Assembly (NCBI GenBank): GCA_004565275.1
Contig: SDOX01000006.1
Location: 1,316,075-1,380,074 of the forward strand
From: Nannochloropsis salina CCMP1776
Taxonomy: Eukaryota > Sar > Eustigmatophyceae > Eustigmatales > Monodopsidaceae
Length of the DNA stretch: 64,000 nt
Direction of reading: 5' to 3'
A program made the position numbers and the translations under genes. Shown piece by piece: positions 3,119-64,000 of the stretch. Each line of letters opens with the position of its first letter. The first letter of the stretch is position 1. The notes below the pieces were generated by a model. The model did no database searches, was not told the DNA's origin, and saw only the letters and a program-made list of their open reading frames with translations.

Positions 3119-4162
3119 AGGCGCCTGCGAAAATGGGACGAAATTGTAAACGAATGGTGAGTTGAGGTCAGCAGCCACCGATTACGTATCTTTCTATCCC
3201 AATAACGCCTACGGGAAAGCCCAGACAAAACAAAAGAGACGATGCTGGGATATCGTCATGCCTTCGGGGGGAAACGTTCAACGTAAAATACTGAGCGACT
3301 GGTTGAAGTTTTATTTCGGTTTCAGCAAAAAAGCGAAATTTGGTATTGAAAATAAACATTATGCACTCACAATCTTTTTTGCATAGCTTGATCTTCCTCT
3401 TGTCTGATCCATGTGGCCAGAGACAATCGAGTGAAGGAAGAGAGTAGATAGCAAGTATACATCGGATGGGCATATTGCTCGGGCAATTAAAGTGGAGCTG
3501 GCACATTTAGTGAAATGTTCTCGTCGTGCTGGCTGATTATAACTAAAAAGAGGTAATTTGGCACCAACAAAGCAGGCACAGGAATTTTTCCAGTTGATAG
3601 CCGGACGGGAACGATTTTCGCTGGAGCTATTTAGAAACCTCTCGTAACTTACAAGTATGGCCAGTAAAGCAACAATGTACAAAACTTATTCATGTGGTGA
3701 TAGGTCCCACCATCCATTCATATTATAAGCCATGTTCTTCTTGGTTTAATTTTCGCGCTTTGCTCAGGTATTGCACTATTTATTTATTATGCCAGGTTCG
3801 GGTATCGGAGTCGACCGACCGTCACCTTCTGTGTGCGTGACCAAGACATCCTTTTCAAACAGGTCGACCACTTTTCCATTCCCTGTCGGGCTCTGTCTTT
3901 AATTTCTTGTGTTTATCTCGGTCGATTGTAGGCTTGGTTTCTTCCTGTATTGTACCTACAAATGTAAGTTACTCACTGACGTCTCCCTGATACCTAGTCA
4001 CTATCTCTCGTCTTCGTTGGCTTGCCTTACAGCATCTTGAAAGCAAAGATCAGATTGAGAGTAAGCTGTCGACGTGAAAGGATCAAACGAATTTGGAGTA
4101 AATTTTTGGGGAGAGACGCCATTGAAAGACTAGCTCTATGCAATTGTTGTTCTCTTGACACT
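3119..4162. other. Gene-free stretch
   Basis: Upstream flank of NSUN6 and 3' flank of the charged minus-strand gene. It is more AT-rich than the genes. Short open frames exist on both strands, but none has supporting splice sites, domain content or a continuation. Confidence 0.5.
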
Positions 4163-5770
4163 CTAAACATTCTACGGAAAAGGAAGATATTCATATTTTT
4201 TGTTTTGGCAGACGATAACATAAGCACCAAACTTCTCTGAATTTCTCCCTTACCTTGTCCGCGTGGTGCCGCGCCTCCATCCATTCTAGCTGAACTCGCA
4301 CGTTCTGTGTCCTCGTCTTCACAATTTCGTTCTCAATGGCGGCTTTTTCTTTGCAAGCCAGAATCATTTCCCCTTCTGCTTTCTCTTGGTCAGTCTGTCT
4401 CACTTCGTCCTCTGTTTCTTCTCCCTCCTGTGTATGGCATTCTTTCCATGGCGTTACGCATCGTTTCTCCACGCTTTCTCCGATGCGTGTGCACTTTTCA
4501 CCTTCCTTTCCCTCTGTTTTCTCGTCCACTTTTTCCTGCATTGCCGTGGCAGTCGCCGCTGAAGTCTCCTCCCAACTCAAACAAGGGTAGTATTCATGCT
4601 TGATCTCGACTGGCAAGGAGGAGGGGGAGGAGAATGAGAGGCGACGTTGTGGACAGGCAACGGACGAGCCATTCAACATCAATTTTCTTCAGGCGGAAGA
4701 GGAGTGAGCTTTCGAAACCGAAAGTTCCAGATCAGCACTTGTTCCTGCGCCCCAACCCCACAATGTGGCACGTACTTGGACTAAATAGCTCCTGCACTTG
4801 AGAACCCCAGAATTTCCAAATATATAGTGGGCTGCCGCCTGATATGCAGAAATGGATTTTTTTTAAAGAGAATTTGGTGAGGAGCAGTAAGTGTGTGTCG
4901 ATCACAAAGCGAGGCTTCTATGACCTCATTTTCATGACCTTGCATTTTATTGTACTTTCCCTCTCCCTTGTAGTTTTATCACTTACGCTTCACCGTTGGT
5001 GTCGGCTGCATGAGCACTCCTCCTCCGAACATGGCTCGCGCATCCTTTCCTTTGACAGCGAAGGATTCCCGGATGTTGATGTGCCGTACCCCTGCCCATG
5101 AAGTGCTTCCAAGACAAGAGGGACTTTTAAGCCTTTTTTCAAGGAGATGCACCCATTTCGCCATGGTACCGGCATACTCCCGTGGGGCGGCAATAGGAAA
5201 GTGGTTTTTTTTCTCACGTCGATGAAAATGCATGCCCTTCCCTTTTTTATTCAAGGTGAGCTGCTGCCTCTCATTTTGTCCATCACCAGCTGAATGGAGC
5301 GCCATAGAAACAAAGGAGGAAGATGAAGATGAAGAGAAGATGGAAGAGAAGGATGAAGACTCTGACATGTATCCATCTTCGTCTATTTTATAGTCCACCT
5401 CCTTTTCATTGTAATTCTCCTTCTCATCATGTGCACGCATGCTGATCCCAATTTTTTCTGTCACAAATGAATTTATCTCTTTTCCCGCAGTGTTCTTGTC
5501 TTGGTAGATTTCCTCTTTACGATTTATCTTGTCCCTTCTTGTAGCTTTGTCCACATTTCGTGCCTGCCTTCTCATAACGCGGGCCATAAATTCAATCTGC
5601 GGTGCCAATATTTGTATGACCTCATACACTGCCCCTATCTTCTCAGAAACTGTTCTTTTCTTCCCCTTGCTACTTCGTTTTCCCCTTCGATTATCTCTCA
5701 TTCCTTCTCCATCATCTCGATCATAAGGATGATTCCAGCGCGGGCTGCTAAATAATCCACGACCGCTCAT
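4163..5770 (-). CDS. Unrecognised charged, coiled-coil-prone protein (split gene)
   Basis: Two coding blocks on the minus strand look like one gene. Block 1 starts at ATG 5770 (MSGRGLFSSPRWNHPYD) and runs about 261 codons to a GTAAGT donor after 4987. It is basic at the start, with KRSSKGKKRTVSEKIGAVYE, then a Ser run, then MAKWVHLLEKRLK. Block 2 covers about 4680-4254 and is rich in Glu and Lys (VDEKTEGKEGEKC, EKAAIENEIVKTR), likely coiled coil, with a GTAAGG donor after 4254. A strong CCTTTTCCGTAG acceptor then gives AAT GTT TAG, ending the protein at 4163. The junction between blocks 1 and 2 does not close in phase, so a small exon or another donor is missing. No catalytic motif is visible and I assign no function. 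Confidence 0.5.
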
Positions 5771-9718: not shown

Positions 9719-12700
9719 ATGACGCCGAAATCGCCGCCTAATAGTGTCAAAGATGGGGACGAAGAGAACGAAGAGGTGAAAATGAGGCGCAAGAAGTGTG
9801 CATAGAGGGAAGAGCGGATGAGAGGTGGCTATTCAGACCGTAATTTTTTTACACACTTTCAATTATATAATCGTCGATATTTACTCAGAGAATTGTTTGA
9901 TAGATAGGATAGAATGTGTTTGACCTTTTGGGACGCCACTTTCCTCGATATTCGCTTACCCTTTCCTCCCCGTTGCTCTGATGTGACCTGTACTTTTCAC
10001 CAGACGGGTGCAGGTGCCTCTGTCGACAAGCTTGTGCGACTGCCTGGGGTGGACGAAGAGGGTTACTGTGAGCTGCGCCAGCGCCGTCCCAGTTTTGTTG
10101 GGATGATGACGCGCTCGCTTTCAAGGGTGTTGACACAGGTTGGAGGAAGGGGGAGATCCTAGTGGTGGTACAGGTCGTTTGGCTTTTCCGAATGTTTCTG
10201 ACACCTTATCCATTACTTCTTTCTCACACAACCCGCTGTCCCTGTCAAAGAGAACCAAACAGCAACAGCACTTTTCACATAAAACCCTCGTCTTACGTGC
10301 ACTTTACCCACATCACGTCTTGATTGGATCCCTGGTTTTTCACGCTTTCCCCCTTGAGCTTTTTTTCCCCTTCAACCAGAAACATGCTCTATCCTCTGTG
10401 AAGGTCTCTTCCTCGTTCCTTCCAACCTCATCTAGCATTCTCTTATCATCGGTTTTAACCTCTCTTCCCCTCTCTTTCTTTCGCGCGTGCATCCCATGGA
10501 CCCCGCAGGAAGACATTGACGACTGGCGCGCCGAGCACACATGGCGAACCATGGTCTTTATGACTGCCGACCACATGTATTATTCTTACTATGTACGGGG
10601 GAGGGGGAGGAAGGGCGGGGGGGAGGNNNNNNNNNNNNNNNNNNNNNNNNNNNNNNNNNNNNNNNNNNNNNNNNNNNNNNNNNNNNNNNNNNNNNNNNNN
10701 NNNNNNNNNNNNNNNNNNNNNNNNNNCCTCCCTCCCTCCCTCCCTCCCTCCCTCCCTTTCCAGGCCTGGCTGTACGGCACCGTGATGTGCACGGTCACAG
10801 GCATCTCCTGCATCGCCTTTGTCCTCTCCACCATGCCACGCTTCAACTACACGCCGTCCCAGTGCTCCCGGCCCATATGCCGTCCGTCCGACCCGGGCGC
10901 GGAGTGCGATCGGGTCATCTGTTACCCGAGGGTGGGTGGGAGGGCGAGAGAGGGCAGGTTGTAAGGCGGGCAAAAGGCTTTGGAAAGGAGAAGAAATCCC
11001 CCCCTTCCCACGTCGGAACATGACCCCTTTACAGTTCCTCGTTTTCATTCCTCCCCTCCCCTCTTTCAGCCCCACCATTATTTGATTCAGACCGAGCTCG
11101 TCACGCTCATCCTCTTCATCTTCGACTACCTCGTGCGTCTTATCACCGTCCACGCGGTGCCGCAGCGCCTCATCTATTGGGACGGACGACGCATCAACGA
11201 AGACCATAGCGTACGTCCTCCCTCCCCCCTTTACCTGCCATCCCTCTTTCAACCCTTCTTTTCAGTCACTGTCTGTTACCAGTTGTAATGAGTGACTTTC
11301 CACACAAACCTGGAATCTAATCGTTATCTTCCATCCCGCCTTCCCATTGTCTTTCCTTTCCCTCTTTCCCGTGCGATTTCCCCCTTTCTCTCGGGCCTCA
11401 ACGCGGATCCCGCCACTCCATCGAATAAAATGTTCCATTGCTTACTGACTGCCTCTGCTTCCCCCCCTCCCTCCGTCCGTCCGTAGCGTGGGTTTACCCA
11501 ACCCTCCCCCCTGGAGAAAACTTTCCGATACGCCGTCCACGCCGACCAGGTCATCGACCTCCTGGTCATCCTCCCCTACCTTCTCAATTACGTCATTTCC
11601 TCCATGAACATCATGCATTGGCGGCTATTGCGGATCACCAGGTAGGAAGGGAAGGAGGAAGGGAAGGAGGAAGGGATATGGAAAGAGGGAGGAAAGGAGC
11701 AATAGAGAAGCAGACGAAAGGAGGGAGTCAACAGAGGTTTGGCTCCAGAGAAGGAGGGGATAAGGGAGAGACGATGTAGAGAGAACAAATAAATAGAAGA
11801 GCTCATAGATTTCACATATACATGCCCTCTTACTACGATCGAGCAGGGTCTTGCGGGTACTGAAGCTAAGCCGTTATTTCGATGGAGGAGAGCTAGTGTG
11901 GAATACACTCAAGTAAAGGCTCGGGGGGGAGGAAGGGCGGTTCCACAGGGGGTGGGAGAAGGAAGAACTTAAAGCAGTCGCCGTGGACCACCTGCGCTCA
12001 AAAGTCGTTAGGAAACTACTGTGCCTTTCGTCTTATTCCTCCTCCTTCACTTACCTTCTCCTTGCCTCTCCCTCCCCAGGAATTCGGGCCCCTCGCTCAT
12101 GCTGCTGACGCTCTTTACTATTGTCTTGACCTTCGTCATGGGTGCTTTGGTACGTGCGGGAGGGAGAAAAGGGGAGGAAGAGGAAGGGAAGACGGGAGGC
12201 AGGGGTGGAGGGAGGGGGTGGAGACAGAAAGAAGAGGGATGGAGGCAATGGGGAGATTGATCGCTCAAGATTGTGTATGTCTGGTCCTCTCTCTCCTACT
12301 CGTGTCCTCCCTGCTTGCTTCCTCTCAGGCCTTCTATTATGAAGGTGGCATATTTAAGGTGACGGCAGCGCATCCTGAAGGAGCTTTCTACCGGCGGGCG
12401 CTTGAAGGAGGGGAAGAGGTAGGCAGGAAGGAAAAGGGGGGCGGGGGAGCATAGAAGAGGGAAGAGATATCTTTCATCGCTCACTCTGTGGATAACGTCA
12501 GTTTCACCCGACCGTTTAGCGTACTTTGGGTTCTCATTCATGCTTAATTCTCTATTTCGATGCTTAATTGTCTGCTAGCCTCCCGGTGTCTTTCCTTTCC
12601 TTCCTCTCCCCCAGGCTTTCCTCCACCGCTCCCTCTTTTGACCTTCTCTCACCTCTCTTTCTTCTGTAGGTATCACCATTCTCTTCGGTGCCAGTCTCCG

Positions 12701-31761: not shown

Positions 31762-34700
31762 CAAAGCTTGCATGGACATAGACCTTTGCAACTGCGCCGT
31801 AGCAGTTATGGAATAAAATCTTACTCAGATCCTGGCAAGTATCTTCTTGGTGGCTTCCCTTCCAGCTTACATTCATTGATTTTTTCCAATAATACTGTAG
31901 GACCTCATGCGAGTACGCGTTTGATCGACATCTACAGCATTGTGGGTGCCATTTTTTGTATCGCCTCCCTGCTGGCAGCCGCCGCAGTGATATGGAAGGT
32001 AAGAAAGCCTTCGATGGGAGGAAAAGATGGGCAAGGAGACCGAGTACATTCGATGTTCATCACTCCATTCCTCTCTCACGCTGCATCTCGCTCCAATGGT
32101 TGATTTTCGTAGCTTGCAAGAAGACCCATGCTCTTATCGACGAGCGGGCGCTCGGTTACGCAGGGACCTCACAGGTAGGATTCAGGCGAAGACGTCATTG
32201 GAGCTTATGACCCGTGCACTCAAGGTTTCCATTAGTTATAGCGGGCTGTGTAGAGCGGGCTTGTGAGTGTTGGACGAGTCTTGACACGTCCCTGGTCTTT
32301 CAGAAAGCTTTGTCCGCCTTGATTGCCCTCTCCTCCCGGTAGTCTGCACACTGATCGCGGCCCCTGTAGGAAGTCGCTCCCTGTGTCGCTCCCTTCCGCG
32401 CGAAGGGGAAGAAGAGTCCTTCTGTGCGCGAAAATAGATAGAGAGTGGAGGGGCGGCTGACGGTGGGGCTGAGAAAAGCGTCCGAGGAAGCGAAGTCCAA
32501 TCCGATGTCTGCCATGAGCCTCTCTTATGACTACACCGCCTCTGTTCCCTCCTCCTTTCCCGCCCTTCCTTTCCCAGCATGAAACGCTTCATGGACTCCG
32601 TGGTGCTCGTCATGTCCGTTATCGACGTCGTCTTTGCTGCGGTCCTAGTCACCACCTTGATTGTGACATGGCGCCTTTGGTACTTCCAAGGTGAGCCTCC
32701 TCCTCGGCTACCCCCCGTCCCTATCCCTGCTTTCCTCTCCCTGCTCCTCGTTCATCTTTTTCGTTTCGTCCAGCAGCTGGCTTCCAATGTAGATGTTACT
32801 TCGGAGACAGATGCGGGTTTTGATTTCCCGGACCGTCGTCTTATCTCATTTCTCCCGTTCCTGTGCCTTCCCTCCTCCCCTCCTTCCATTTCGCTTCCCT
32901 CCCTCCTTTAGGCGTACAAAACCATTGGGTGTGGTGGGCCTTCGCGCAATTTTGCTGGCTTCCTCAGTTCTACCACTGTTACATCGCCTCGGTGTGTTTC
33001 AACTGGGTGGTTCGCAAGCATTCCGTCGCCCGCCTGCAGCGCGCTTTCCGCCCGTCCTTGGTGGGGATCGTGCTGGCCGTACTCCTACAGACGACACTGG
33101 CGCTCTCCCTCAATGGATGGGATACGAGAACGGGGGAATCCTTTATGCTGGCAAAGACGATCGCCTACATTGAATACCTAGGTGAGGGGATGAGCACTTT
33201 GCTTAGGGGGCACCACGTTTGAGTTGGAGGCATGTTGGAAGACAAGGGATGACGAGAGGAGAAGGGAGAGATATGTGCCATGGTTCCTACGCTCTCATCC
33301 TGATGGACCTTTCTTCCCTCCTTTCTTTCCCTCCCCCCATCCCCCTCGCGTTCCGACAGCCGTACATGTCTGTACGCAGATGACCCTTCTCTGGTTCTAC
33401 ATTCGCAGCTGCTGGTCTCTGGTCGGCCACCTCCGCGTTGGACAGCGCGTGAACAAGCCCTACCGGAAGATAGTCTGGCGGTTCATGAAGGTCCCTCTCC
33501 TCCCTCCCTTCTTTTCTCGCTCTCTCCCTCCCTCCCTCCCTTTGCCACCCTTTCCCGCCCTTCCTCCGCCAGTCTTGCTCGGGTTTAGATTCCTTCGAAG
33601 CTCATTTCTTCTTTTCACCCATTTAGATGTGCGCCATGAGCCTTATCGTGTGGTCTTTCTGGACAGCAGTTATGTTCATGTGAGTCTCCCTCCCTCCCGC
33701 TTCCACTCAGTCCTTTTGTTACTTCCCTCTGCCCCCCGCCTTTCCTCTTTCCTTCCATACTTCCCTTTCTCCTTCTCCTCCTGGTGTCCTGCGGCCTTCC
33801 ACCCCCATTCCCTTCCCTCTTTCCCCCTCTTTCAGTCATTTACCACTCGCCCTCCCTTTTTTCTGTCTTATTTTCTCCCTGCAGGTGGTACACGGTCTTT
33901 ACAACCCAGCTGGTGGTCATCATGTTCCTGACCCTGCCTGTCTGGATATATCCCTTCTTGGATGCCATGCTCATGGTTGGGAGGGAGGGAGGGAGGAAGG
34001 GAGGGAGGGAGAAACGGAGGAAATAAAGGGTCTGGCATGTGAAGTGCACGGCGTGTTTGGAGCGTTCCGCGGAGTTTGTCTTCCCTGACAAGTTCTGAGC
34101 CCCCCCACTATGTCTCGCCTTCCTCCTCGCTACTTTCCGCGCTTCAAGCCTCTCAAGCAACCCATGACATCGATTCCCTCTCCTCCTTACGCCCTTGTCC
34201 CCTCGCTCGCGTTTCATTTTCCTCAGGGGAACATCTTTGAGCTTTATCGCCGGGGTCCTAGTTCGGAGGAGCATCGACAACGAGGGCCCGTCACGGTGGC
34301 TTCAACATCCGGTAAGTCTCCTTCCCGTTCGCTGCTCCTTCTTCACTCCTTGTCCCATGGGGTTACCTTGGAATTCTCCCCAATCTACCTCCCTCTCCCA
34401 TCGTTTTCCCCTCCTCGTTATCGAACTCCTCTATATTCCTCTACTCACGACCCCCGTTTTCGCTTCCATGTCTCGTCGCACTTTTGTTTCTACGTGCCCC
34501 TTTGCGCTCCTTTGGTAGTGAAATGTTTAGAGTCACGCGCAGGGGCCTGGCGCGCATCGCAAGAAGGGCTGGGCCATTCGTCGTATGCTTTTCGTGGGAA
34601 AATAAGGAGGGAGGAAACGTCGGCATCGGAGGTAGGGCTCGGCAGAGGGGATGGAATGGCGAGAGTCGGGAATGAGGTGCCTGTAAAGGACGGCATTGTA

Positions 34701-37700
34701 GGATTAATGACGGGCTCGGGCGTCCTTCTCTGACAGCCTGATGGTGGCTTGTGCATCTAGTACCCCTCACGTCTCTCCCTCCCGTCGTCTGTCCCTCCCT
34801 TGTCTTCCAGCGAGGCGCTTCCACTGCCACCATTTTCACCAGCACCTTGAACTTGGGAGGTGTAAAAGATATTGCGCATCTAGGAGGGTCGCTTGAGGAG
34901 TGGCTGCCCCCTGATTACGACGTGTACTGTATCGGTGTACAGGTAGGGTAGGAGGGAAGGTGATGGTGATGCGAGAACGAGACTGGAGATGTTCGGGAGC
35001 ATGCGCAAAGATGGGGCATTTGGGTTGATATCTTTACTTGCTTTTCCTCCGTCCCGGCCCTTTTCCTTCGGGCAGGAATGCATCATCCTGGACGATCTTC
35101 GGCAGGCCCTCCACGAGCATTTGGGAGGCCCTTCGGAGTACACCATGTTTCAAGCGGACGTTGGGGCAGCCACCATGCTTTACGGTACCATTGCTTTGAC
35201 GGCCTTTGCGCGCGTTAGGTAGGGGGGAAGACCGGGGGGAGAAGGGGAGGGAGAGAAGAACGGAGGGAGGACGCACGTTATCTCAGGGCTTGGTGGCCGT
35301 GCCCTGCTGTGTTAGATATGTTCTTCTCTCAGCCTGGGGGTTGTCTCCCACTGGTCTCTCATCACGCGACAAGAGACACACGGCAACTCCTGATTCCCTG
35401 CGTCCGGTCCCTCCTTTCTTCAATCTTCCCTTTTCAGTGACGTGCAGCGGGGCGCTTTCTCGGCGATCGACGCCCTGACGTCCCGCGTCAAGAACGGCGT
35501 TAATCTGGTCGTGACCAAGACGGTAGGACAGGAGGATTGAAGAGGGTGCGAGGGAAACGATGTAGGAAATGAAAGGGGAAAGGGCATGGGGCACGAGATA
35601 GAGAGTCGGATATAGCATTGAGCGATGCTGCTTGACGGAGGGAACATATAGGAGGGAAAAAATCCCAAAAGGAACCAAGGGATTGATGGTTGTATCACAG
35701 TCTCGAAGGAAGATGAGAAGGGGACAAGCGGTCAAGAGAAAATAGGCGGCGTCTTTGTCTCATCTCACGCTGTGTCTTTTCAACTGTCTTCCTCTTGCCC
35801 CCCAAATCACAGGCTAATAAGGGCATGGTGGGGCTAGCTTTCCGGTATCACGATAGGTAAGTTTTCTTCCTTTCCTCTTCCTCTCTTTCCTGCAATCTTG
35901 TCTTTCTTCTCACGCATAACTTCTTCCCTTCTGTCGTCTAAGCCGCCCTTTTCTTAAGTCGCCACGTCGAGTGGAGACGTTTTTCACTGGTGTCTCTGTC
36001 GTTCCCCTGGCCTTTTGGGAGGATTTCTTCGCGCAGTTTATCATTTACTCCCTCCCTCCTCGTTTCCCTGGCTATCCCTCGTGGTCCAGCACCCTGGCCT
36101 TCGTCACAGCCCACTTTGCCTCCGACTCCGGGGGGAAGACCCGACTGAATCGTCGCAATGGAGACGCCTACGTCCTCCTTCGGGCCCTGAATCTGACGGA
36201 TACCGAGGAGGGATTCGATTTCCACCTCGAGCACCACCACACGGTGCGTATCAATCCTTTCGAATTCCTTGTCCCATCGCCTCTTTTGGCAATCTTTCAA
36301 CCTCCCGTACTCAGCTAGCTGATCGTGCCATTAAGCATCGCTCACCTCTTTCTTCGAACCTCCCTGGCAGTTCGTCATGGGTGACCTGAATTACCGCATG
36401 AAGACGGATGCCGCCTCCATGATCACTCGCATCGCCGCAGCTGCCACCAGAGCCAAGGGAATTTTGAAAGACCGTACGACCCTTGTCTTCCTCTTTCCTT
36501 TCTCCCGCTGGCCATATCTTTCTAGCCCTCTTTTCGTGTTTCGATGGCTCATACCCTTCTTCTCTCAAGGGGGCAACATTGGAGGGCCGGGCTGATTATA
36601 TCTTTTCCCACCGGTTTCCCCCCTTTCCTCCTCTTTTTTCATGCCTTCATACAGGCTCTTCCCAGACTTCCGATGCATTACAGCCTTCACTGCAGGGCTT
36701 GGGCTTTCTGGGGGAAGAAGAGGATCGGGATGGCCGCAATGTCCGGTTCGGGTTTCCCTCTTTTGACGAGAAGATGGAAGATGCCCCGTCCTCCCATCGC
36801 GACCTTGCCTTCACGCCGGCACCGCGGGAGGAAGTGGGGGTAGAGTGGAGGGAGGAGGGGCAGATGTCATGGGTGCGGGAGAAATACCTTCGCTTGTACC
36901 CGCGGGGCGCACCTGGCGACGGAGGGAGCAGGAGTCCATTAGGCTTGGTAAGCAAGGGTGGGAAGGAGGGAGAAATGGGGTTGGGAGAGGACGGAGGTGT
37001 TTTGCGCTTTGACCCTATGGTGGTCTTAGAATGCATGGGTACGCTGCAATTGTGAATCATCTTCCGGAGAAATACCAGGGTGACTTTTTCCGTAGTCCTT
37101 TCCCCGAGAAAGACTTCGTAAATTCCACGGTCGCTGAGATACTGCCTGTCTGTTCCATCCTCTAATTTCCACTTCCTTTCTGTCCCTTCCTCGATATTTC
37201 TCGTGGCAGCTCCTACGCCGCCGGTGGTCTTCCGGCTTGAGCGTCCTGTCAACGCAGCCCGAGGGATCCGTCGAGCGGCAGGGATCTTGCCAGGTGGGGG
37301 AAAGAGGAGGGAGGGAGGGAACGAGGGGAGGACGGCAGAGAGAGAGTATGTGACTGGGTAAGGCGCGGGGGTTTCTTTCACGTCCTCGCTTTGTGTCCCC
37401 TCACTTACCCTTGGTCTCGCTCGCATTCCCATCCACCTTCCCGTATTGCCTTCGACTCAGTTCCCACAGGAGGTGGAGAGAGACGAAGACATCCTGACGG
37501 ATTCCGATGAAGAGGAGGACAGCGGGGACGAATGGGAAGAGAAGGAGGATGAGGCAGGGGCGGGGGAGGCGGAGGGGGAGGTCCAAGAGCAGGAGGAGGA
37601 ACAGGAAAAGATGGAAGAGGAGGAGAAGCTGGAGGAAGTGGAGGAAGACGAGGAAGAGGAGGAGGTGGGGGACACGGTGGAGGACGAAGGATGGGATGCT

Positions 37701-40700
37701 GAGGAGACCAAGGAGGAAAGAGGTACGTGGTCTGGGAGATTGCTCCCTGTCCTCTTTGGCTTTCAATTTTGACCTCACCTCCCTCGCCACTCTTCCTATC
37801 ATGCGCCTTTGTCTGGTCTGACATTTCTCGTCCCCCTCCCTCCTTCCTCCCTCCCTGCCTCCCTTCCTTTCTTTTTCTGGGCCGTCCAGCCACGACTGAC
37901 ACCACAAAGACAAACCAGTCGCACGATGGCCTCTCCCAGCGCTCCCCGCATTGGCTCACGCTCAGAAACTCTCTCAGAGGTACAAATCTCGTCAAGGAAG
38001 GAGAAAGAGGGAGGGAGGGAGGGGGGAAGAGGGAGAGAGAGAGGGAGGGGGCTTCAGAGAGAAGGAAGCAGGATTGAGCCGCTGTAGTGAGGAGGCAGAA
38101 AGCAAACCGAAAAGCTATGTGTCGCGACGGGCAATCAGACTCTTGAGACCATGATCTCTTTCCTCTTGTCTTTGATTCCTACTTCCCTCTGCCCCCCGAT
38201 CCCAGGCATCAAGGCAAGTGACAAGAGTCCCCTCGCCTCCAAGGCTTCCCCACAAGATTTCCCGGTCTCGCCCTCCCGTCGCGCCATTCTCGGTCGTCGG
38301 TTTGGCTGGCCAGGGCGCAAGAGGGGAGCTGCCCGGGGAGGCGGCCACCATCGTCTGCGCAGACGCGAGAGGGAGGAGGACGGGAGGGAGGGAGGGAGGG
38401 AGGAAGAGGGGGAGGACGGGGAGACCTGCGGTGGGGAGACCTCTGGTTACTTCCCTCCAGACTCAGAAGCCAGCGGAGGCGACACCTCGGGCCCTACCTA
38501 CTCCTCCCTCCCGTCCGACCCGACCTCCTCCCCTCCTTCGCAAGCGGATCGACACCAAGGGCGGCGGCCGTCTTCTCCCTCAGAGGGGCACTCGTCTTCC
38601 GCCTCCGGGGGGAATGATGTCTTCGTCAGCGGATCTTACAGCAGCGGCGGTCACCGGGTGAGGGTAGGGGGCTCGTGGTCTGGGAACAGGGGGAAGGAAC
38701 TCATGTGCAGTCCCTCCACTGCGCGGAATTCCCTCTTCTACTCTCAGTTTGAGGGGGCAGTAGATAAGGAGGGAGCATGGGCACGAGCAAGCAAATTAGC
38801 TGAATAAATTGACAAGAAGTCATGCAAGCTTAATGAGACCCTGGACAACCCCCTCCCCTCACGTTTTTCCAGTCCCGGAGCTCGAGCAGCAATCACGTGG
38901 TCGTCTCGATCCCGCCCACCATCACCACGGCGCCCTCCCTCACGCCCTCGGAGGGGAAGAAATCCGACGGAGAGGGACGGCGTGGCCGGAAGCGAGGGAG
39001 CAAAAGGAGGCTGCGCTTGAAAAAAGTGAAGCCGCAGGTCAGTAAATAGGGAAATTGAGGAAGGGAGAGGGGGTTGGAGATGAGAAAGGGAGACATGCAC
39101 GAGATATTGGCGGAAGGGCCTGTCTTTATCGTTGATACATTGTCCCTCTCTTGTCCCGATGCTTGCATCTTGACACTAAAGCTTGACCGCGTTCTCACCA
39201 TGTTGCACGTGCCGGATGTCTTTGCGTGCTTGTACTTACCTTATATCCTGCGAAACTCCTCGTCAGCGCAAGGAGAAATCCCGGGTGGCGCACGCATGGA
39301 CGTGGGTGAGGGAATTGGATGAACTGCAGTGCGAGATGAAGGTGGGATGGGGGAGGAGGGAGGGGAGGGAGGGGAGGGAGGAGAGGAAGGAGGGGGCGGG
39401 CAGACGAGGGATAGGAAGGAAGGGTGACAAAAGGAAAGACGCGACACGGGCTTGAAGAGCGTATGTGTGCGCAAGATACGGTCATCTCATGCCTCAGCCC
39501 TGCCTCTCTCTCCTCAGGCGGGTCGGGTCTTTTCGGGGTTTTCCGAAGGGGAGATCGCCTTCCCGCCCTCCTTCCGCTGGCGTCGAGGGGCCATCGCCGG
39601 AGATTTCACGGACGAAGAGATGCTCGCGGCGAGCTATGTGCTGCAAAAGAAGGGGGACGGCCAGGTGGGGAGGGGGGGAGGGGGGGAGGGGGGGAGGGAG
39701 GGTGGAAGGGAGGGCGTTCGCAGAGGCGAGGCAATATTAGAGGGGCTGCGACGCATCGAAATTTCAGAGACCTGATTTTCATCCCAGCCGACTACCATCA
39801 TCTCAATCTCTTTCCTGTCTCCGCCCCTCGATTCCCATTCTATCCTCCCGCATGATTTTCCCACTCTCCCCCTGCCCTCCTCCGTCTCAGCGCGTCCCCT
39901 CCTACACGGATCGCATCCTCTTCCACTCCCTGGCCGACGTTCGGGGCTCCCTCTCCCTCGTCGCTTACGAATTGTGCGACGCCCTCACGGGCTCCGACCA
40001 TCGGCCCGTCTCCGCCGCGTTCGAGCTGAGACTGAACAAGAAGGTAGGTGCGAGGGAGGGAGGGAAGGAGGAGGGAAGGAGGGAGTGAGGGAAGAGAACG
40101 AGCCACGGGCGGGAGGGAGGGAGGAAAGAGAGAAAGTTGCTCGGTGGCTGTCCCCGGACCTCGTGCCGCTCACCACGGACGTTGCTTGCTTTCCCTCGTC
40201 CGTCCCTTCGCGCAATGTTCCCTCGCATTTCGACAGGTAATTGGCTTCAGGACTATGCCCTCGCTCAAAGGAGACAGTAGCAGCACCCTTCCCGTTTCCG
40301 GTCGCATGCAAGTCCCGCGGGGCTACCCAGCCGTCTCCTCTCTGGGCGCGGAGGGAGAGGAGATAGAAAGGGAGGAAGGGAAAGAGGAGGGCGGAAGGCA
40401 GATTCCGACCACACCGGCGCCTTTTTTGGGTGCTATCACCCCAGCCATCGAGGTAGGATGCTTCCCTCTCCCAAACGCGCCCCCAGTGCTGGTGTCTTTG
40501 CACCACGGACGAGCTCCTCTCCTTCTCTCTCTCCCTTCCCTTATTTCTCCCTGCAATGAATGGGGAAGTGGACACAGAGGCCTGTCCCTCCACTGGCCCG
40601 TCCTATATTTTCTACTTGGTCTTTTTCTCTATCCAGCCTCATCTCACTCACTTCCTTCCTACTCAGTACCCGACGGCCTCCGTGTGGAGCGTGCGCCTCT

Positions 40701-42837
40701 CCAACGCTTCCTACGATCCCATCAAGGACCTAGCCGCAAGAGAAGACACCGAAGGTCCGGTCGGCACAACGGTCAATGTAATGCACCCCAACTGCAAGGT
40801 AAATGATATGCCTCCTGTCTCTCTTGCTCCCGCTTGGTTACCCTATTTTTTTAGCTCGGATATTGTGTATTGCTCTCCACGTTCATCGAGACGCAAGTCT
40901 ATAGCACGTCATATTTCCTCTTCCCCTACTCCCTTTCTTCCCTTCTTCCAGGCCAATGCGGACTGGACGCTTACGATTCATTTCCCCTCCTTGTTGGAAG
41001 ACCCTTTCGCCCACGACCGAAAAATGCGACTACTCCAGGAGGCTATGCACGAGGGGGGAAGGGAGGCGGCAGTTTCAAGAGAGACGCTCAAGTCCCTGCT
41101 GCAGACACCACGGGTAACGAGCAAAAGGGGTTGGAGGGAGGAAAGGAGGGGGAGGGAAGGAGGGGAAAAAAAGGGGGAGGGAAACGCGAAAGTGGAGACA
41201 GGCGTCAGCATGGATAGCGAGGACGGAATGAGGATAGGGAGATAAGCGCCGGGCATCTCCACAACACAGTCCACACGACGCTTATTTTCCCTTCTCTCCT
41301 CCATTCCTTTCGTCCTCCGACTTCCTCCCTCTCCTTCGAAGCAGGATCATCTCCGACAGCAACAGCTCCAACTTCAGCGGGGGCTCTCCCTGACCCTTCC
41401 TCCTCCTCAGTGGGATGCAAAATGCCGTGCTTCTGGGGGCTCGATCATCGATGCTGCCGCCTTGGGTACTTCCTCCTGCCCCTCAGCCCTCTCTCCTTTT
41501 CACCTCTTTCCCTCCCCGTCGTGCTCTCTTCTTCTTCTAATCTGCCTCTCCTCTGAGCCTTTGCATCAATATATGTACAAGAATAGTAGCTTTTGCCGAG
41601 GGACTTTAGCATCGTCCCCTCCTCGCTTGTCCCTTCGTCTATCTGCTTCCCGTCCCAGCCTCATTCCTTCCGATCCCGCCTTTCACTCCTCGCCTTCTCC
41701 CTCTACAGGCACGGCATTTGGACAGGCAGCGGCTCTGACTACCCGCGCGCATCAAGCGGAATGGGGGCAGGTCTCTCAGCCCGAGGGTACCAGCTTTAAG
41801 GTAAAGAGTGGAGGAAAGAGATATTTTGGAAAGGAAATCAAGCAGGGAGCGAAAGCTTTGAAAGGGAGCGCTGAGAGACGTGAAAAGAGAAGAGCGACCA
41901 AGTGTGGGAAAAAGAGTAAGAGACTGGCAAAAGACTGACAGTGTGCCCCCTGTGCCGAAACTAATGTCCGAGCTACGTCCAAGCATTTGCCGAAATCCCG
42001 AATCTCCGAGGCGTCTCAACCCGCCCTCCCCCCCGACCCTCTCCTACCTTGCCTCCTCTTCCTTTCTCCTTCCACAGGTCCTGGTCCTTCCAGAAGTCTC
42101 CCGTCATGCATTGATTCGAGTGACAGACTCTCGGGGGAGAGAAGTCGGTCAAGGTGTCATGTGCCTGCGACAGGCTTTCCCCACCTCTGTCCGCTCTTCC
42201 TCGTCCTCCTCCTTCTCCCTCTCGGAGGGCGGCAAAGAGGAGGATGGTGGAGTGATGGGCGCTCCTGTACAAGCTCTTCGCCGTTTGGTGGGAGGGGACA
42301 GGGAGAAGGAGAAGAAGCGGCGCAAGGGAGGGGAGAAGAGGTAGGTGCAGACGACCGAGGGGTGGAAACGCCTGAGGTTTGGCATATCAAGCACGGTGGG
42401 GGCTCTCTTCCTTGCTTCCCTCAAAGACCCTGTTTCTGATTGCTTTCATTCCCTGGGGTACCTTCTTCTAATCCATCTGTCCATGTGCCTGTCTTCCTCG
42501 CAGATTGGAGGTGCCTCTGTCCCTTGGAGGTCGGGCGGCTGGAGTTCTTCGCCTCTCCATTCGTATTCATAAACGAGATTATGAGTATAATATGGCGGAG
42601 CAACAAAAAGGAGAAGAGGAGAAAGGAAGGCATGAGAACGGCGAGCAAAGCCGCAATCCTTGGAAATCAATGGCGGCTGCGATGGGGGGATGGTGGCATG
42701 GGGAAAAGAGGGCCCAGCAGGGATGGAATGAAGACGAGGGAGAGCAGAAGGAGATGGAGACGGGAGTGGAATCCGACAGCCCGCGAGCCACACCAGATGC
42801 TGCTGTCTATCATGAAGGAGGGAACCATGATATATGA
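31762..42837 (+). CDS. 7TM receptor fused to an inositol polyphosphate 5-phosphatase (GPCR-bigram)
   Basis: About 31 exons, roughly 1,618 residues from 31762; the true start lies upstream. Receptor exons: 31762-31998, 32113-32174, 32578-32690, 32912-33181, 33360-33490, 33627-33679, 33885-33975. They encode seven hydrophobic segments from IVGAIFCIASLLAAAAVIW to LVVIMFLTLPVWIYPFLDAM. Linker: 34227-34311, 34519-34631. Phosphatase part 1: 34811-34942, 35076-35218, 35438-35522, 35813-35856, 36090-36243, 36371-36473, with GVQ/EC (metal-binding QE), TAHFAS, RRNGDAY and VMGDLNYRM. Acidic insert: 36655-36947, 37210-37293, 37461-37722, 37890-37979, 38206-38657, 38873-39037. Phosphatase part 2: 39267-39341, 39518-39664, 39891-40043, with FPPSFRW, PSYTDRIL and GSDHRPV. 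C-terminus: 40237-40452, 40667-40798, 40952-41113, 41345-41465, 41709-41800, 42078-42340, 42504-42837, C2-like. All 5-phosphatase catalytic residues are present. Phases close except that exon 37210 has a more protein-like second frame. Confidence 0.85.
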
Positions 42838-58099: not shown

Positions 58100-58567
58100 C
58101 GCTCCTCAAAGTAGATACTAGGCTACTGTCCTTGAAATGAGCACAAAAATTGCGTGAAAAAGCGGACCAGAGATGTGAGGAGGTAGTCGCGATGAGAAAG
58201 GGAAAAGGAGTGGATTTCCAAAATATTTACCCTTCCAAATAGACATTTCGCTCATCATTTCCGCGTCGCTTACAAAAAATCCTCTCAATACATTGTGTCG
58301 CTATGCCGGAGGCTCATTTATACGAGTATTTGGGAATCTAGCTGATAATTGTTTACCACCTGGGGGAGATTTCCCCGTTCCGAGCCACTGCTAGAGCAAC
58401 TTACACCATGGGTTCATGGGCCTCAAGACAGATCTTTACCGCGCAGAATGTACATAGCTGCATGTGCCGATGATACACACTAAAAAACGTATTTAATCGA
58501 ACGTCCTGCTTAACCAACAGGTGCAAGCTGCCGGGATTGGCGTTTCTTGGCAACGCACCTTCAAGTC
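58100..58567. promoter_or_regulatory. Divergent upstream region, RPC7 / CASP
   Basis: 468 nt between opposite start codons of two housekeeping genes. No specific element identified. Confidence 0.4.
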
Positions 58568-61258
58568 ATGGAGGACCTTCCAACTGGCGTTATGCCAACA
58601 GCCGCCGCGGAAACGCTACCTGTAGAGATCCTTGATCCAAACGTGACTGTTCTTCCGGTGAAAAGTGAAAGTCTGGGTGGTGGCGAGGTTCATGCGGAGA
58701 GCATGGGCACACGAGTCCGCAAATCCAGCTCCACCACCGTGGCGAGCAACAAAATGGGCCCAGGCCTCGGCAAGTCATTTTCCTCATCAACTCCCAGCGT
58801 GTCGACAACGGTGCCTAATGCAGTCGCACCTGTTGACACATCGTATAATTCTCTCTCTACCGCTACTGCTCTTGAAATCGCCTTTGAATTCTGGTCGGGA
58901 CTGGATCTATCAGGTGCTTGCCGTGCGGAGCTCGAGCGGCAAGGGCGCGAGCTCAAGGAGGCAAAGGAGGGCACAATAAGAAACCGAAAACGCCTGACGG
59001 AGGCGACGAAGGAATGGAAGAAGAAAGGTGAAAACAATAGAAGTGAGTTTGAAGTCTTGCTGAAAGCCTACCAAGAGGAGATTGACAGGCTGACCAGACG
59101 AGCCAAAGGCGCGGATGCTGCCTTCGCTAGTGCCTATCAAGTCCTGCACCAGGCGCCGGACCCCACGCCCTTTCTCGACGAAGCCAGATCCGATAATCGG
59201 ACTGGGGCTACACTTAAAGCCGAGCTTGAAAGGCTTCAACAAGAAGTGGATGAATACGAGGTGGAGTTTCGGAAGCTCAAGAATCAAGACGTCACCATTC
59301 GCAGGCTGCAGGAGAGCCTGACCGCGTACGAGCAGGGAGCGGCGGGAGATATGGCAGCATCCATCGAGTCAGCACGGGTGGAGATAGAAGCCTTGGCGAA
59401 CGCTAGGGTCTGCGAGGCCAAAGAGCGGGAGAGGCGCATGGAAGGTCGTTTGCGGGTGGCGGAAGCGGCAGAGGCAGCGGCGGAAGGGATGCGGGCTCGC
59501 GCCCAGGCTGAACTGCTGGAGCTTGCGCGTCTGGCGGAAGAAAAGGTGGCAGCGATGACGGCCGAGGGAGACTTGCTCGTGCAGGAACGCGAACGATTCG
59601 AGGCGGAGGCTGTGGCGTTGCGACGGGAGCTTGAAACTGTCAAAATGGCAGCCAGCGAGGCAGGTAGGGACGGCGCGGACGGCCAGCCGGTCTCCTTACG
59701 ATCGTCTTCTGCTTCCTCTGACACCGGGAAAAGCTGCGTGGAGGCTCTCGAAAAGGAGCTGGAGGAGATGGGGGCATCCCTCGCTGCTGTGCGCCAGCGG
59801 CTGCTGGCCAAAGAGGAAGAGTGGGCCTCGTCGCAGCGTCGCGCCCGGGAGGCGGCAGCAGCGCTAGAGAAAGAATTGGAGGAGGAGCGGAAAGCCAGGT
59901 CCAAGGCAGAGGAAGAGGCACAAGAACTGCCGTCAAGGGAGGAAGTGGGGAAACTGAGGGCGCGATTGCGATTGTTGCAGCAGTTGGGGTTCAACGGGGC
60001 GGAGGAGGAGGAGGGAGAGGGCGGGGAGGGGATGACGCTTGGAGGACCCAGTGGGACGGCAGGCAGGCGGAAGGACGCTATGGACAGGGCCCCGAGTGCC
60101 ACCGAAGAGGGCGAGGTCAAGGAGGAAAGCATCGTGGAGGACCAGGGTCAGGAGGGAGGGGGGGGCACGGGTGTGGGGAGACTGCTGATGGCCAGGCTGC
60201 GGCGCATGGAGACCGAGGTCATGACGGGACGTCGCCGGATTGCTGAGCTGGAGGGGGAGCGGGCGTGCCTAGAGAACGAGAAACGGAGTGCTGAGGCCAG
60301 GGTGGTGGAATTGAGTGCGCTGACTTCCCGGCTGGAGGATGACCTGGCGCGTGTGGCCAGCAAGGGGGGCGGTGACGTGATGGCCGAGGGGACGGTCGGC
60401 TCACACTCGCGGACACCCTCAGTCCCTCCCGGCCGGGGACCGTCCTGGAAGGCGGCATCCTTCCGGGACGAGGAAGATCTAGACGTTGATATGCACGAGC
60501 TCTTGTCCTCGACGACACAGGCCGCGCCCGCCCTTGGTGCGTCCCCCTCGGCCTCCCTCGACCTGGTCCGGATCCTCCAAGCCCAGCGCGACAGGTACAA
60601 GGCGCGAACCCGCGAGCTCGAGGGCCGACTGGCGGCCGTGGAGCAAGAGTCGGGTCGACACAAGGCACAGGCGGAGTCGATGCTGCGCGACAATCTTAAG
60701 CTCTACGAGAAGGTCCGCTTTCTGCAGAGCTATAAGAAGGGGAGGGTCGGTCCAGGCGCACTCGACAGCGCACAAGATAAGAGGATGTCCGGGTTAGAAC
60801 ACTCGGCGCTCCATCAACGGAATGTCGCCAACGACGAGGGTAAAGAGGCTCAAGAATGCGCGCTGGAAGCGGGTCGAGTGCCGACTGGCGCAGGGGCTGC
60901 CGCAACAGAAGCTCGTTATCGCGCCATGTACGAAGAGCAAATGAACCCTTTTACCGCCTTTTCAGTCGCAGAGCGCGTCCGTAAGTATCAAGACTTGAGC
61001 GTAATCGACAAAATTACGCTCCAGACAACACGGGCGTTTCTTGCCCACAAGAAAGCGCGGATGGCGGTCTTCTTTTACGCGCTGAGTCTGCACCTGCTGG
61101 TCTTCCTGACTCTGTACATGTGGGGGCATCACCACTGCACTGACCTGCATAATCAAGCAGACGCGCTCATGGGCCACCCACCCGAGCCGTTAGGGATGCA
61201 GTCATTGTCAATGGGAAGTCATACGGTAGGAGGAGGAGCCAATCATTTGCAAGGCTAA
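58568..61258 (+). CDS. CASP: CASP golgin (tail-anchored Golgi coiled-coil protein)
   Basis: One uninterrupted frame of 896 residues from ATG 58568 to TAA 61256-61258. The N-terminal CASP region is recognisable (ALEIAFEFWSGLDLSGA, RKRLTEATKEWKKKGE). A long heptad-rich coiled coil follows, residues about 110-720. The conserved CASP C-terminal domain has LQAQRDRYKARTRELEGR, LRDNLKLYEKVRFLQSY, YRAMYEEQMNPFTAF, and a transmembrane anchor near residues 834-856 (MAVFFYALSLHLLVFLTLYM). CASP tethers vesicles in intra-Golgi retrograde transport and interacts with golgin-84 in other organisms. It has no intron, unlike its neighbours. An in-frame TTG at 58547 precedes the ATG, but I use the first ATG. 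Confidence 0.9.
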   Translation: MEDLPTGVMPTAAAETLPVEILDPNVTVLPVKSESLGGGEVHAESMGTRVRKSSSTTVASNKMGPGLGKSFSSSTPSVSTTVPNAVAPVDTSYNSLSTATALEIAFEFWSGLDLSGACRAELERQGRELKEAKEGTIRNRKRLTEATKEWKKKGENNRSEFEVLLKAYQEEIDRLTRRAKGADAAFASAYQVLHQAPDPTPFLDEARSDNRTGATLKAELERLQQEVDEYEVEFRKLKNQDVTIRRLQESLTAYEQGAAGDMAASIESARVEIEALANARVCEAKERERRMEGRLRVAEAAEAAAEGMRARAQAELLELARLAEEKVAAMTAEGDLLVQERERFEAEAVALRRELETVKMAASEAGRDGADGQPVSLRSSSASSDTGKSCVEALEKELEEMGASLAAVRQRLLAKEEEWASSQRRAREAAAALEKELEEERKARSKAEEEAQELPSREEVGKLRARLRLLQQLGFNGAEEEEGEGGEGMTLGGPSGTAGRRKDAMDRAPSATEEGEVKEESIVEDQGQEGGGGTGVGRLLMARLRRMETEVMTGRRRIAELEGERACLENEKRSAEARVVELSALTSRLEDDLARVASKGGGDVMAEGTVGSHSRTPSVPPGRGPSWKAASFRDEEDLDVDMHELLSSTTQAAPALGASPSASLDLVRILQAQRDRYKARTRELEGRLAAVEQESGRHKAQAESMLRDNLKLYEKVRFLQSYKKGRVGPGALDSAQDKRMSGLEHSALHQRNVANDEGKEAQECALEAGRVPTGAGAAATEARYRAMYEEQMNPFTAFSVAERVRKYQDLSVIDKITLQTTRAFLAHKKARMAVFFYALSLHLLVFLTLYMWGHHHCTDLHNQADALMGHPPEPLGMQSLSMGSHTVGGGANHLQG

Positions 61259-61494: not shown

Positions 61495-64000
61495 TTACAA
61501 GACGGATACGTTCCCGAGTTCGATAGAGAATTGTTTCAGCAAGAGCTTCTGGACCAACACCATCAAGCGCGGATGTTCTTCCTCGAGACGCCTGAGCGCT
61601 GTCTGACTGAAGACACCGAGCTTGACAGGCGTCATCGCTCGCGCGAAGAATCGCCGGCGTTGATTTTCTAAAAAAAAGTCCACGAAGCCAAAGAGCGAGC
61701 CTGAATGCAGCACAACCTCCACGCGCCGTCGACGCCAGTCCCGGCTTCCATCTCCCCACGGGGGCAAACGGTCTGCGGCCCTCACAGGCTCCTCTCTGGC
61801 GTCCTCTTCCAGCGATTCAAGAGCCACCTCCCCAGAGAGAATGAGGTAGAAAGAGTCAGAGATGTCGTCCTTGTAGAAGATGGAATCTTCCTCGCGAAAT
61901 GTCTCTTCTCGTGCGTAGTGAGCTATCATCTCCAACGCATCCTCATCAACGGAACTTGCCATCGCCGATCCAATCTCCTGTCCTTCTCCGTCCTCTTCCT
62001 CCTCCTCCAAAAGCAGTTTCCGAAGGACACTCACAACGCTCAACTCTTGCATTCCACGCAACGAGAAAGCCCGGGCTCGCAGGGAATGCCCATGAGTATG
62101 CTGCGACTCTTCAGCGAGCAAAGCCGTCTCACAGGAATCCAGCGCCTGGTGCAGGGTGGGAAAGAGGCGAGTATTGTTGTCTGCAAGCAGCCGGTTTGCC
62201 CTTAAGTAGAATTCTACGCGGACGTTGCAATTGCTGTAACAAAGAATGACCTGCACGTCCTTGCAGAGGGTTTGCAGCGGCAAAAAGCAATTCACAACAC
62301 TCGACATATCGATAGCGGGCACCCGTCGGAAATCGAGTATGAGAAAGCGAGGCTTTGGGGCGTTCGCAAAATGATGGGCAGCGCCAGTACCAGACGCTTG
62401 CATTTCTTGTGTCATTGCTTCGCTGAATGGCTTCATTCCGGTCCCGTAAGTACCGGTGACTGCGGAAGCACCGCCACCAATACTCCTGCCTTCGTGGCTC
62501 GGAGGAGACGAGGGGGGAAGGGAGGAGCCAAGCAGCGCCAGAGAGGCAGCAGACGTTTGACCAACAAGCGGTGACGCTTCTGTTGCTTCCTCTTCATCCA
62601 CAGCTGCCTTCTGCGCTTCCTTAGGCGCGTCAACACTCCCTCCGTGCCAGACGCGCGTCCACAAGCTGCTAGAAAGGTTACGAAAGGTCTTCTTCCTCCT
62701 CCCTGTCAAAGCATTCGACGACACTCTTCTTCCCGCAGCCTTCGTATGAGCACCTCCGGAGCCAGTGCTCTGACCGCCAGCCCACATTTCTGCCTCCTCG
62801 GTGAGTGATCGTCGGGAGTGCGTCCGAGAAGGACGATACTCCCCCGCCCCCACCATCTTTCCTTTTCCCCGCTCGGTCGATCGTTCTTTGGCTTTCCGTG
62901 AAGGGGATTGCGCTACCCCCAACAAGGATTTGATGTGCTCGAGGGTCGTGATACTGCTTCCAAAAAAAATAGCCCCGTTAAGCTCTAGCGTCAAAATCTT
63001 CCCGTGGTCGAGAAGTCTGCGCGCACCCCTTAGGCGCGCCACGCGGCTGCGTTGGCGCTGGGCCTGAGCAGTCCGGGCGGTGCTTTTGGCGTAAGAAACT
63101 ATAAACATCGCCATCGAGAGCACTATCCCCAAGGCAAAGCCGGGAATAATGCCGAAAGCCACATTGCCCAAAAACGTCGTCCACAGGACCACGTACTCCT
63201 TGGCCGTCATGCGCAGCCGCGCCTCCACCAGCCACTCGAGCATCAGCTCAAAGGTAATGAAATGAAGGGTCGCAGCGAAGAAGTACAGCGGGATGTAGGA
63301 CATGAGATCCACATCGCAGAAAAAGACCGCCAGCTCCGCCACGATGAGGACGAGGCCGCAGAGTCGAGAACGAGTTTGCGTGCGGTACGTGAAGATGGTC
63401 TGGGAGAAGATGTAGGAGCCCGTAAACCCCCCGCACAAACCAGCGATGAGATTGGAGGCCCCCACAGTGGAAAGCTCGTGGTTTTTGTTCAGCGGCCGAC
63501 CGCCGTCCATCTCGATGGCCACGATGTCCAGGCAACTGCTGAAGGAGACGACAAAGATCATTCCCAGCAACGTGGGGAGCTGGTAGGGCACCACCCACCA
63601 CTCGATCCGGCCTAATAAGTCAGGCGGCCAGACCTGATAGAGCGCTACGGAGGCCTGCCAAGATGCTGGTGCATTGGCGGGTCCCACCCAGCCGAAGTCC
63701 CTCGCCCCCTCCATGCTCTCTCCGGCCAAGAAGAGCACGCCGTAGAAGACGAGGGGCACACAGACCATGGCCACAGGCAAAGCGAGAAAGTGCTTAAACG
63801 AATGGGCCACTATTGAAAGCACCACGCCTGCCAAGATGCCTGGAAGGACCAGCACAACTGCCCGGGGATCGTACAGGGCGCTCCAAGCCTGAAGGGAGTC
63901 CAGGTCGTGGCCGACAGATAGCGCCACGCCCGCGCGGAAGCAGAAGGCTGCAATAAAGACGATTTGCCCCCCGATCACCGGTAATGGTAGATAAGATACC
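61495..64000 (-). CDS. SulP/SLC26-type anion transporter with STAS and cNMP-binding-like tail (5' partial)
   Basis: Open frame from TAA at 61495 to the window edge, at least 834 codons; the start is outside. The frame at the edge reads VSYLPLPVIGG, a conserved SulP motif. Transmembrane helices fill about 63050-64000, including ALDIVAIE-like CLDIVAIEMDGGRPLN, GGFTGSYIFSQTIF, DLMSYIPLYFFAATLHF and GIIPGFALGIVLSM. Next comes a STAS domain in two parts, LELNGAIFFGSSITTLEHI and FLILDFRRVPAIDMSSVVN, separated by about 150 low-complexity residues. The last about 180 residues resemble a cyclic-nucleotide-binding domain (DSFYLILSGEVALES, GSLFGFVDFF). SulP-STAS-cNMP architecture is known from fungal proteins of the YGR125W/Vsb1 group, a vacuolar transporter. 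Substrate and membrane are not readable here. The gene is intronless as far as seen. Confidence 0.9.
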   Translation of the reverse strand, partial: VSYLPLPVIGGQIVFIAAFCFRAGVALSVGHDLDSLQAWSALYDPRAVVLVLPGILAGVVLSIVAHSFKHFLALPVAMVCVPLVFYGVLFLAGESMEGARDFGWVGPANAPASWQASVALYQVWPPDLLGRIEWWVVPYQLPTLLGMIFVVSFSSCLDIVAIEMDGGRPLNKNHELSTVGASNLIAGLCGGFTGSYIFSQTIFTYRTQTRSRLCGLVLIVAELAVFFCDVDLMSYIPLYFFAATLHFITFELMLEWLVEARLRMTAKEYVVLWTTFLGNVAFGIIPGFALGIVLSMAMFIVSYAKSTARTAQAQRQRSRVARLRGARRLLDHGKILTLELNGAIFFGSSITTLEHIKSLLGVAQSPSRKAKERSTERGKGKMVGAGEYRPSRTHSRRSLTEEAEMWAGGQSTGSGGAHTKAAGRRVSSNALTGRRKKTFRNLSSSLWTRVWHGGSVDAPKEAQKAAVDEEEATEASPLVGQTSAASLALLGSSLPPSSPPSHEGRSIGGGASAVTGTYGTGMKPFSEAMTQEMQASGTGAAHHFANAPKPRFLILDFRRVPAIDMSSVVNCFLPLQTLCKDVQVILCYSNCNVRVEFYLRANRLLADNNTRLFPTLHQALDSCETALLAEESQHTHGHSLRARAFSLRGMQELSVVSVLRKLLLEEEEEDGEGQEIGSAMASSVDEDALEMIAHYAREETFREEDSIFYKDDISDSFYLILSGEVALESLEEDAREEPVRAADRLPPWGDGSRDWRRRRVEVVLHSGSLFGFVDFFLENQRRRFFARAMTPVKLGVFSQTALRRLEEEHPRLMVLVQKLLLKQFSIELGNVSVL

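Follow-up and report, generated by a model that had tools for sequence, protein, structure and literature searches.

Seven hydrophobic segments and an inositol 5-phosphatase domain in one predicted protein of Nannochloropsis salina

Can one gene of an alga encode both a receptor-like membrane part and an inositol 5-phosphatase, and what would such a protein do? The question is raised by positions 31762-42837 of a 64,000-nucleotide stretch of Nannochloropsis salina CCMP1776 (contig SDOX01000006.1, hereafter the window), where an initial annotation had placed both parts in a single protein. Herein, our findings reveal one gene with seven hydrophobic segments, a complete set of 5-phosphatase motifs and common ancestry with a paralogue in which the two parts are fused within a single frame. 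Both the gene model and the single-frame paralogues bear out the annotated union, and on these sequences the helices and the phosphatase are almost certainly one fused protein. Leaving ligand control aside, the gene probably encodes a membrane-held polypeptide of the type known as GPCR-INPP (GPCR, G-protein-coupled receptor), with a cytosolic 5-phosphatase predicted to act on phosphatidylinositol 4,5-bisphosphate (PI(4,5)P2).

The gene model and its single-frame paralogues

Candidate exons were placed by eye, and splice sites and frame were then checked. The resulting model has 31 exons (Table 1), GT-AG borders at 30 of 30 introns and a single open frame that encodes 1615 residues before a stop codon ending at 42837. 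The continuous phase announced by the initial annotation is therefore recovered, as a weak argument by itself given that some exons were fitted. An early layout of 14 exons broke phase at two places, which speaks against phase continuity as proof. A layout of 30 exons held phase to exon 27 and lost it at exons 28-29, and the repair consisted of a new exon (41345-41465) and the extension of the last exon to its stop. With two broken layouts and several fitted exons, phase continuity was rejected as proof of fusion. Several open frames are possible in many exons of the model, so that, together with the fitted exons, the 31-exon model requires outside support.

This support was sought among the paralogues. 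Searching the genome (26.5 Mb, 103 contigs) with the PF22669 profile gave 20 matches, which resolve into 12 loci as a lower bound. The C55 paralogue, at 1133 kb, contains a 535-residue single frame that comprises helices and the first half of the phosphatase, with five segments above 1.5 on the Kyte-Doolittle scale preceding the latter. Against the window protein, of which 506 residues were compared, this frame shows 41% identity. Used alone as a query, helices 4-7 gave six matches in the genome, five within the window's own gene and one to the C55 frame, where 106 residues aligned with 27% identity (E 5.5e-8). For the whole helix region, the match to the C55 locus (E 2e-21) falls into two pieces that are 30% and 29% identical, the former lying upstream of the 535-residue frame. 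When ten paralogue sequences were compared with the window by tblastn, seven had matches to exons of the phosphatase or of the C-terminal region; helix exons (32950-33487) were matched in addition by two of the seven, namely C55 at 32983-33120 (E 0.004) and 33386-33487 (E 4.7e-5), and C57 at 32950-33105 (E 0.006). The tblastn matches follow the modelled frames, some of them extending past exon edges. The C36 frame and the helix frames of C47 and C99 did not match the window, and neither did any of ten shuffled copies at E <= 0.01. Because the C55 paralogue joins both parts within one frame and resembles the window in each of them, the fusion does not depend on our splice guesses.

Other loci have the same arrangement. 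Single frames extend from the helices to SDHRP in C14 (1554 residues) and C1 (1223 residues), and from helix 3 to SDHRP in C57 (1241 residues). In C55b, C36, and C47 a single frame covers the helices together with the beginning of the phosphatase; for C36 and C47 this beginning was read from motifs in the helix frame, where Pfam reported no domain. In C13 and C99, helix-7-like residues, recognized by eye, share a frame with the phosphatase start, and the other helices lie in neighbouring frames. With the spliced window locus (C72) included, nine of the 12 loci carry an upstream multi-helix part, two showed none, and one (C11) is cut by an N run, on counts based on hydropathy and homology. The C55a and C52 loci matched none of the eight aligned helix regions at E <= 0.01; hydrophobic stretches that precede them, of which a single frame of L048 has as many as five, were not counted.

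The helix alignment holds eight of the nine fused loci. C13, whose helices were read by eye, was left out, and its frame P0006 (L010:2195-4924), mostly a wrong frame, entered the hydropathy scan but was kept out of alignments. The helix regions of the seven paralogues are 12-33% identical to that of the window protein. Mutual matches were found for window-C55b, window-C57, C14-C57, C14-C47, C57-C47, and C47-C99, the helix regions of C1 and C36 matched no other at E <= 0.01, and none of the eight matched the C13 locus. In a tree of phosphatase first halves from ten of the 12 loci (C47 and C11 left out, C36 present as a piece only), the two stand-alone enzymes grouped apart with a support of 0.96.

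Membrane part, phosphatase domain, and C-terminal region

A Wimley-White scan over the first 385 residues of the model gave seven strongly hydrophobic segments with scores of 6.9-15.5, all ahead of the 5-phosphatase domain. A weak eighth segment at residues 27-45, with a score of 3.9, precedes them. Shuffling these 385 residues 1000 times produced seven or more segments with scores of at least 6.5 on 8 occasions, and the same count was reached by 1 of 254 pieces taken from other reading frames of the window. The seven segments of the initial annotation thus stand; their distribution over seven early exons does not, as they occupy six (exons 1, 3, 5, 6, and 7 with one each and exon 4 with two). 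The Kyte-Doolittle scale at 1.1 was less clear, recovering five of the seven segments and none at helix 3; one of its segments (215-233) merely touches helix 5, and another (458-476) falls inside the phosphatase. All seven aligned rows share the residues DA after helix 7, and next come G-N-x-F in the window protein, C55b, and C36, GDLF in C57, and HDLF in C14.

Receptor descent was approached through profiles. Matches below the Pfam cut-off, each on one paralogue, were 7tm_1 (E 0.029) and Dicty_CAR (E 0.097). A scan restricted to the helix regions gave 7tm_1 at E 0.02 and Dicty_CAR at E 0.41, with the unrelated membrane family Rnf-Nqr at the top (E 0.012). A profile built from the eight helix regions retrieved 14 Protein Data Bank sequences at E <= 10, of which ten were rhodopsin (best E 0.19), two APL1, and the remaining two MalG and Frizzled-6. 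None of these matches being significant, assignment to a GPCR family by profile was rejected. Topology and profile ranking agree with a GPCR, short of establishing GPCR descent.

The catalytic motifs of 5-phosphatases are the N of WNxxG, QE, NKG, H..RN.D, GDLNYR, DRI, and SDHRP. The window protein holds the full set (Table 1), which includes every motif named at the outset (QE, TAHFAS, RNGD, GDLNYR, TDR, and SDH). A profile scan of model residues 1-1346 likewise recovered the inositol 5-phosphatase domain in full (PF22669, E 7.4e-34), as the initial annotation had anticipated. Judged by its motifs, the enzyme is very likely active as a 5-phosphatase. At the RNxD site C14 and C1 conform, with RNQH in C57, RNAN in C13, and RLEN in C55b. 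Like the window protein, C14, C1, and C57 contain long inserts following GDLNYR or the corresponding motif. The C99 paralogue has TFDMAC, AVQR, and GNLNYR at three catalytic motif places and is probably a receptor-type protein with an inactive phosphatase.

Beyond the phosphatase domain, the scanned part of the C-terminal region (up to 41113) gave no Pfam match. Positions 41940-42170 matched C57 (E 0.009) and C99 (E 0.002) by tblastn, and C14 and C1 resemble this region by eye. Scans of C14, C1, and C57 over their entire frames gave no Pfam family other than PF22669.

Known relatives and genomic context

The animal enzymes SHIP2, INPP5B, OCRL, and synaptojanin belong to the same catalytic domain family as the window protein, with an E of 3.7e-11 between the C14 paralogue and SHIP2 chains. 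These animal 5-phosphatases are not known to carry a seven-helix part. They also differ from the receptor type found here in that the latter mostly reads PSYTDRI, without the second H of HLAAH; both stand-alone 5-phosphatases of this genome possess that residue.

Receptor-5-phosphatase fusions are already known as a kind, probably in this same genus. The plastid PsaB of this genome departs at 4 of 737 positions, by eye count, from chain 8zo9_b (1714 bits, against 1491 for the next chain), part of a photosystem with VCPI antennae. One light-harvesting protein aligns with VCPI-2 of that entry along 223 of 223 positions; five other light-harvesting queries gave no near-identical chain. Entry 8zo9 is probably a Nannochloropsis photosystem, and the genome would accordingly belong to Nannochloropsis or a very near relative. 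In the excerpted text of van den Hoogen et al. (2018, PMC5784254), GPCR-INPPs consist of a seven-helix N-terminal part and a C-terminal inositol polyphosphate phosphatase, P. infestans has seven of them, and the one species outside oomycetes to possess them, Nannochloropsis gaditana, has seven genes and lacks GPCR-PIPKs. The window protein has the same layout, with seven helices N-terminal (by hydropathy and gene model) and the phosphatase C-terminal (PF22669). The oomycete 5-phosphatase type among GPCR-bigrams to which the initial annotation compared it corresponds to GPCR-INPP in that text; the added remark that this version is little described in an alga fails on the N. gaditana genes reported there in 2018. 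Open-licence literature provided no GPCR-INPP description beyond PMC5784254 and a review (PMC6033456). Compared with N. gaditana, we count nine fused loci as against seven reported, one of ours lacking catalytic residues. Small additions drawn from the sequence are the nine loci, the probable loss of activity in one enzyme, and the C-terminal region that paralogues have in common. GPCR-PIPKs, represented by RpkA of Dictyostelium and by Phytophthora proteins in the excerpts of PMC6033456 and PMC9694693, also fuse a seven-helix part to a phosphoinositide enzyme. However, the enzyme there is a kinase and here a phosphatase, which is the opposite step.

The genome was also searched for partners of such a protein. 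One of six matches in the G-alpha search exceeded the cut-off (E 1.1e-113), spanning profile positions 2-333 of 333 (332/333 covered) and containing a single in-frame TGA, probably intronic. With a G-alpha gene present, a G-protein route remains in play. Signalling that bypasses the G protein, as the initial annotation proposed, is one of several hypothetical models set out in PMC6033456. Phospholipase C (PF00388, PF00387) had no match in the genome, nor in the control genomes, so its absence is not shown. Eight PIP5K loci, inspected on both strands over about 1.5 kb, had at most three hydrophobic segments per frame and no helix-region match. PIP5K loci without a multi-helix part agree with the lack of GPCR-PIPKs reported for N. 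gaditana.

Elsewhere in the window, a sulfate permease frame also matches a cyclic-nucleotide-binding domain and may represent a transporter gated by cyclic nucleotide. It is listed with other neighbours in Table 1.

Table 1. Exons of the 5-phosphatase gene, predicted helices, the C99 locus, and other features of the window
Feature	Position	Strand	Description
Exon 1	31762-31998	+	Helix 1; no in-frame ATG
Exon 2	32113-32174	+	Helix 1-2 loop; acceptor fitted to phase, uncertain
Exon 3	32578-32690	+	Helix 2
Exon 4	32912-33181	+	Helices 3 and 4; matched by C55 and C57 paralogues
Exon 5	33360-33490	+	Helix 5 and basic loop; matched by C55 paralogue
Exons 6 and 7	33627-33975 (33627-33679, 33885-33975)	+	Helices 6 and 7
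Exon 8	34227-34311	+	Residues after helix 7; DAMLM-GNIF spans the exon 7-8 joint
Exon 9	34519-34631	+	Linker; inferred from phase
Exons 10-15	34811-36473	+	5-phosphatase, first half: TLNLG, GVQE, NKGMVGLAFRY, TAHFASD..RRNGD, GDLNYR
Exons 16-21	36655-39037	+	Acidic low-complexity insert within the phosphatase domain; borders uncertain
Exons 22-24	39267-40043	+	5-phosphatase, second half: FPPSFRW, PSYTDRI, SDHRPV
Exons 25-31	40237-42837	+	C-terminal region; stop ends at 42837
Seven helices	Model residues 60-78, 118-136, 143-161, 186-204, 231-249, 277-295, 296-314		Wimley-White prediction
C99 fused helix-phosphatase	L017 (G000:C99:47500-57499), 1877-5611	-	Altered catalytic motifs
Sulfate permease frame	61498-63999	-	PF00916 (E 2.5e-13); cyclic-nucleotide-binding domain PF00027 (E 8.1e-11)
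CASP/CUX1-like protein	58514-61255	+	PF08172, PF25398
RsmB/F-type RNA methyltransferase	1463-3181	-	PF01189
Run of 100 N	10627-10726		Probably an assembly gap

Possible roles of the membrane part

In the reading that we favour, the seven helices would hold the protein in a membrane and the 5-phosphatase domain would lie on the cytosolic side, where it would remove the 5-phosphate of PI(4,5)P2 and perhaps of related lipids or inositol phosphates. The C-terminal region common to the paralogues would follow the phosphatase domain. The state of the helix bundle would set the rate or the location of the enzyme. Control of the 5-phosphatase by a ligand is conceivable, at slightly less than even chances.

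Several observations count against this reading of a membrane-held GPCR-INPP-type enzyme. The gene model was read from genome DNA alone, and the acceptor of exon 2 and the exons 34519-34631 and 41345-41465 were picked for their fit to the phase. Exon 1 contains no in-frame ATG and a start exon upstream was not found, so the true start would lie further upstream and the 5' end is missing from the model. The orientation that puts the phosphatase in the cytosol is poorly backed by charge: the loops between helices 1 and 2 and between helices 5 and 6 are filled with basic residues, yet the first 58 residues of the protein model are net basic as well. No Pfam receptor family exceeded the cut-off in the helix regions, and the window protein itself had no receptor-family match in either the whole or the helix-only scan. 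Rhodopsins top the ranking of the helix profile, but their E of 0.19 is not significant. Lastly, the PSYTDRI form, with the second H of HLAAH missing, prevails among the receptor-type phosphatases.

These weaknesses bear differently on the competing explanations. If a membrane protein and a phosphatase were two adjacent genes wrongly joined, a model read from DNA with a phase-inferred exon (34519-34631) in the joining stretch is where such an error could arise. However, C55, C14, C1, C57, and C36 all fuse the helices and the phosphatase start in frame with no intron at the joint; on this ground we rejected two genes as very improbable. A second explanation accepts the fusion and makes the helix part a mere membrane anchor, which would fix the 5-phosphatase to a given membrane and bind no signal. 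The lack of a receptor family above the cut-off fits an anchor, as do the low identity of the seven paralogues' helix regions to the window's and the isolation of those of C1 and C36. Yet one helix would suffice as an anchor, whereas a multi-helix part is kept in nine loci. Rhodopsins rank first for the helix profile, though not significantly, and oomycete bigrams join a seven-helix part to several different enzymes according to the excerpts of PMC5784254. An anchor is thus a credible but less favoured possibility.

The protein could also be an ordinary GPCR that signals through G-alpha, with a phosphatase tail activated by that signal or damping it. The nearly full-length G-alpha match speaks for this route, which is among the possible modes of action listed for GPCR-bigrams in the excerpted review (PMC6033456). 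On the other side, the helix region is distant from known receptor families, and we consider this route rather unlikely, a little more so than the anchor. The favoured reading, a fused membrane-held 5-phosphatase, could be carried further: receptor-fused enzymes (nine of the 12 loci) would form the main 5-phosphatase repertoire of this algal lineage, receptors would directly control most phosphoinositide removal, and C99 would act as a decoy or regulatory receptor. This wider picture is speculative, and we think it improbable to a greater degree than either alternative just described.

The review, in its excerpted text, treats direct transfer from the seven-helix part to the enzyme as an open question. 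Were the enzyme under the control of the helix part, one protein would turn an outside signal into phosphoinositide loss without an intermediate. An alga that carries several genes of this type, a number of them without any interruption of the frame, would be a convenient place to address the question of direct transfer.

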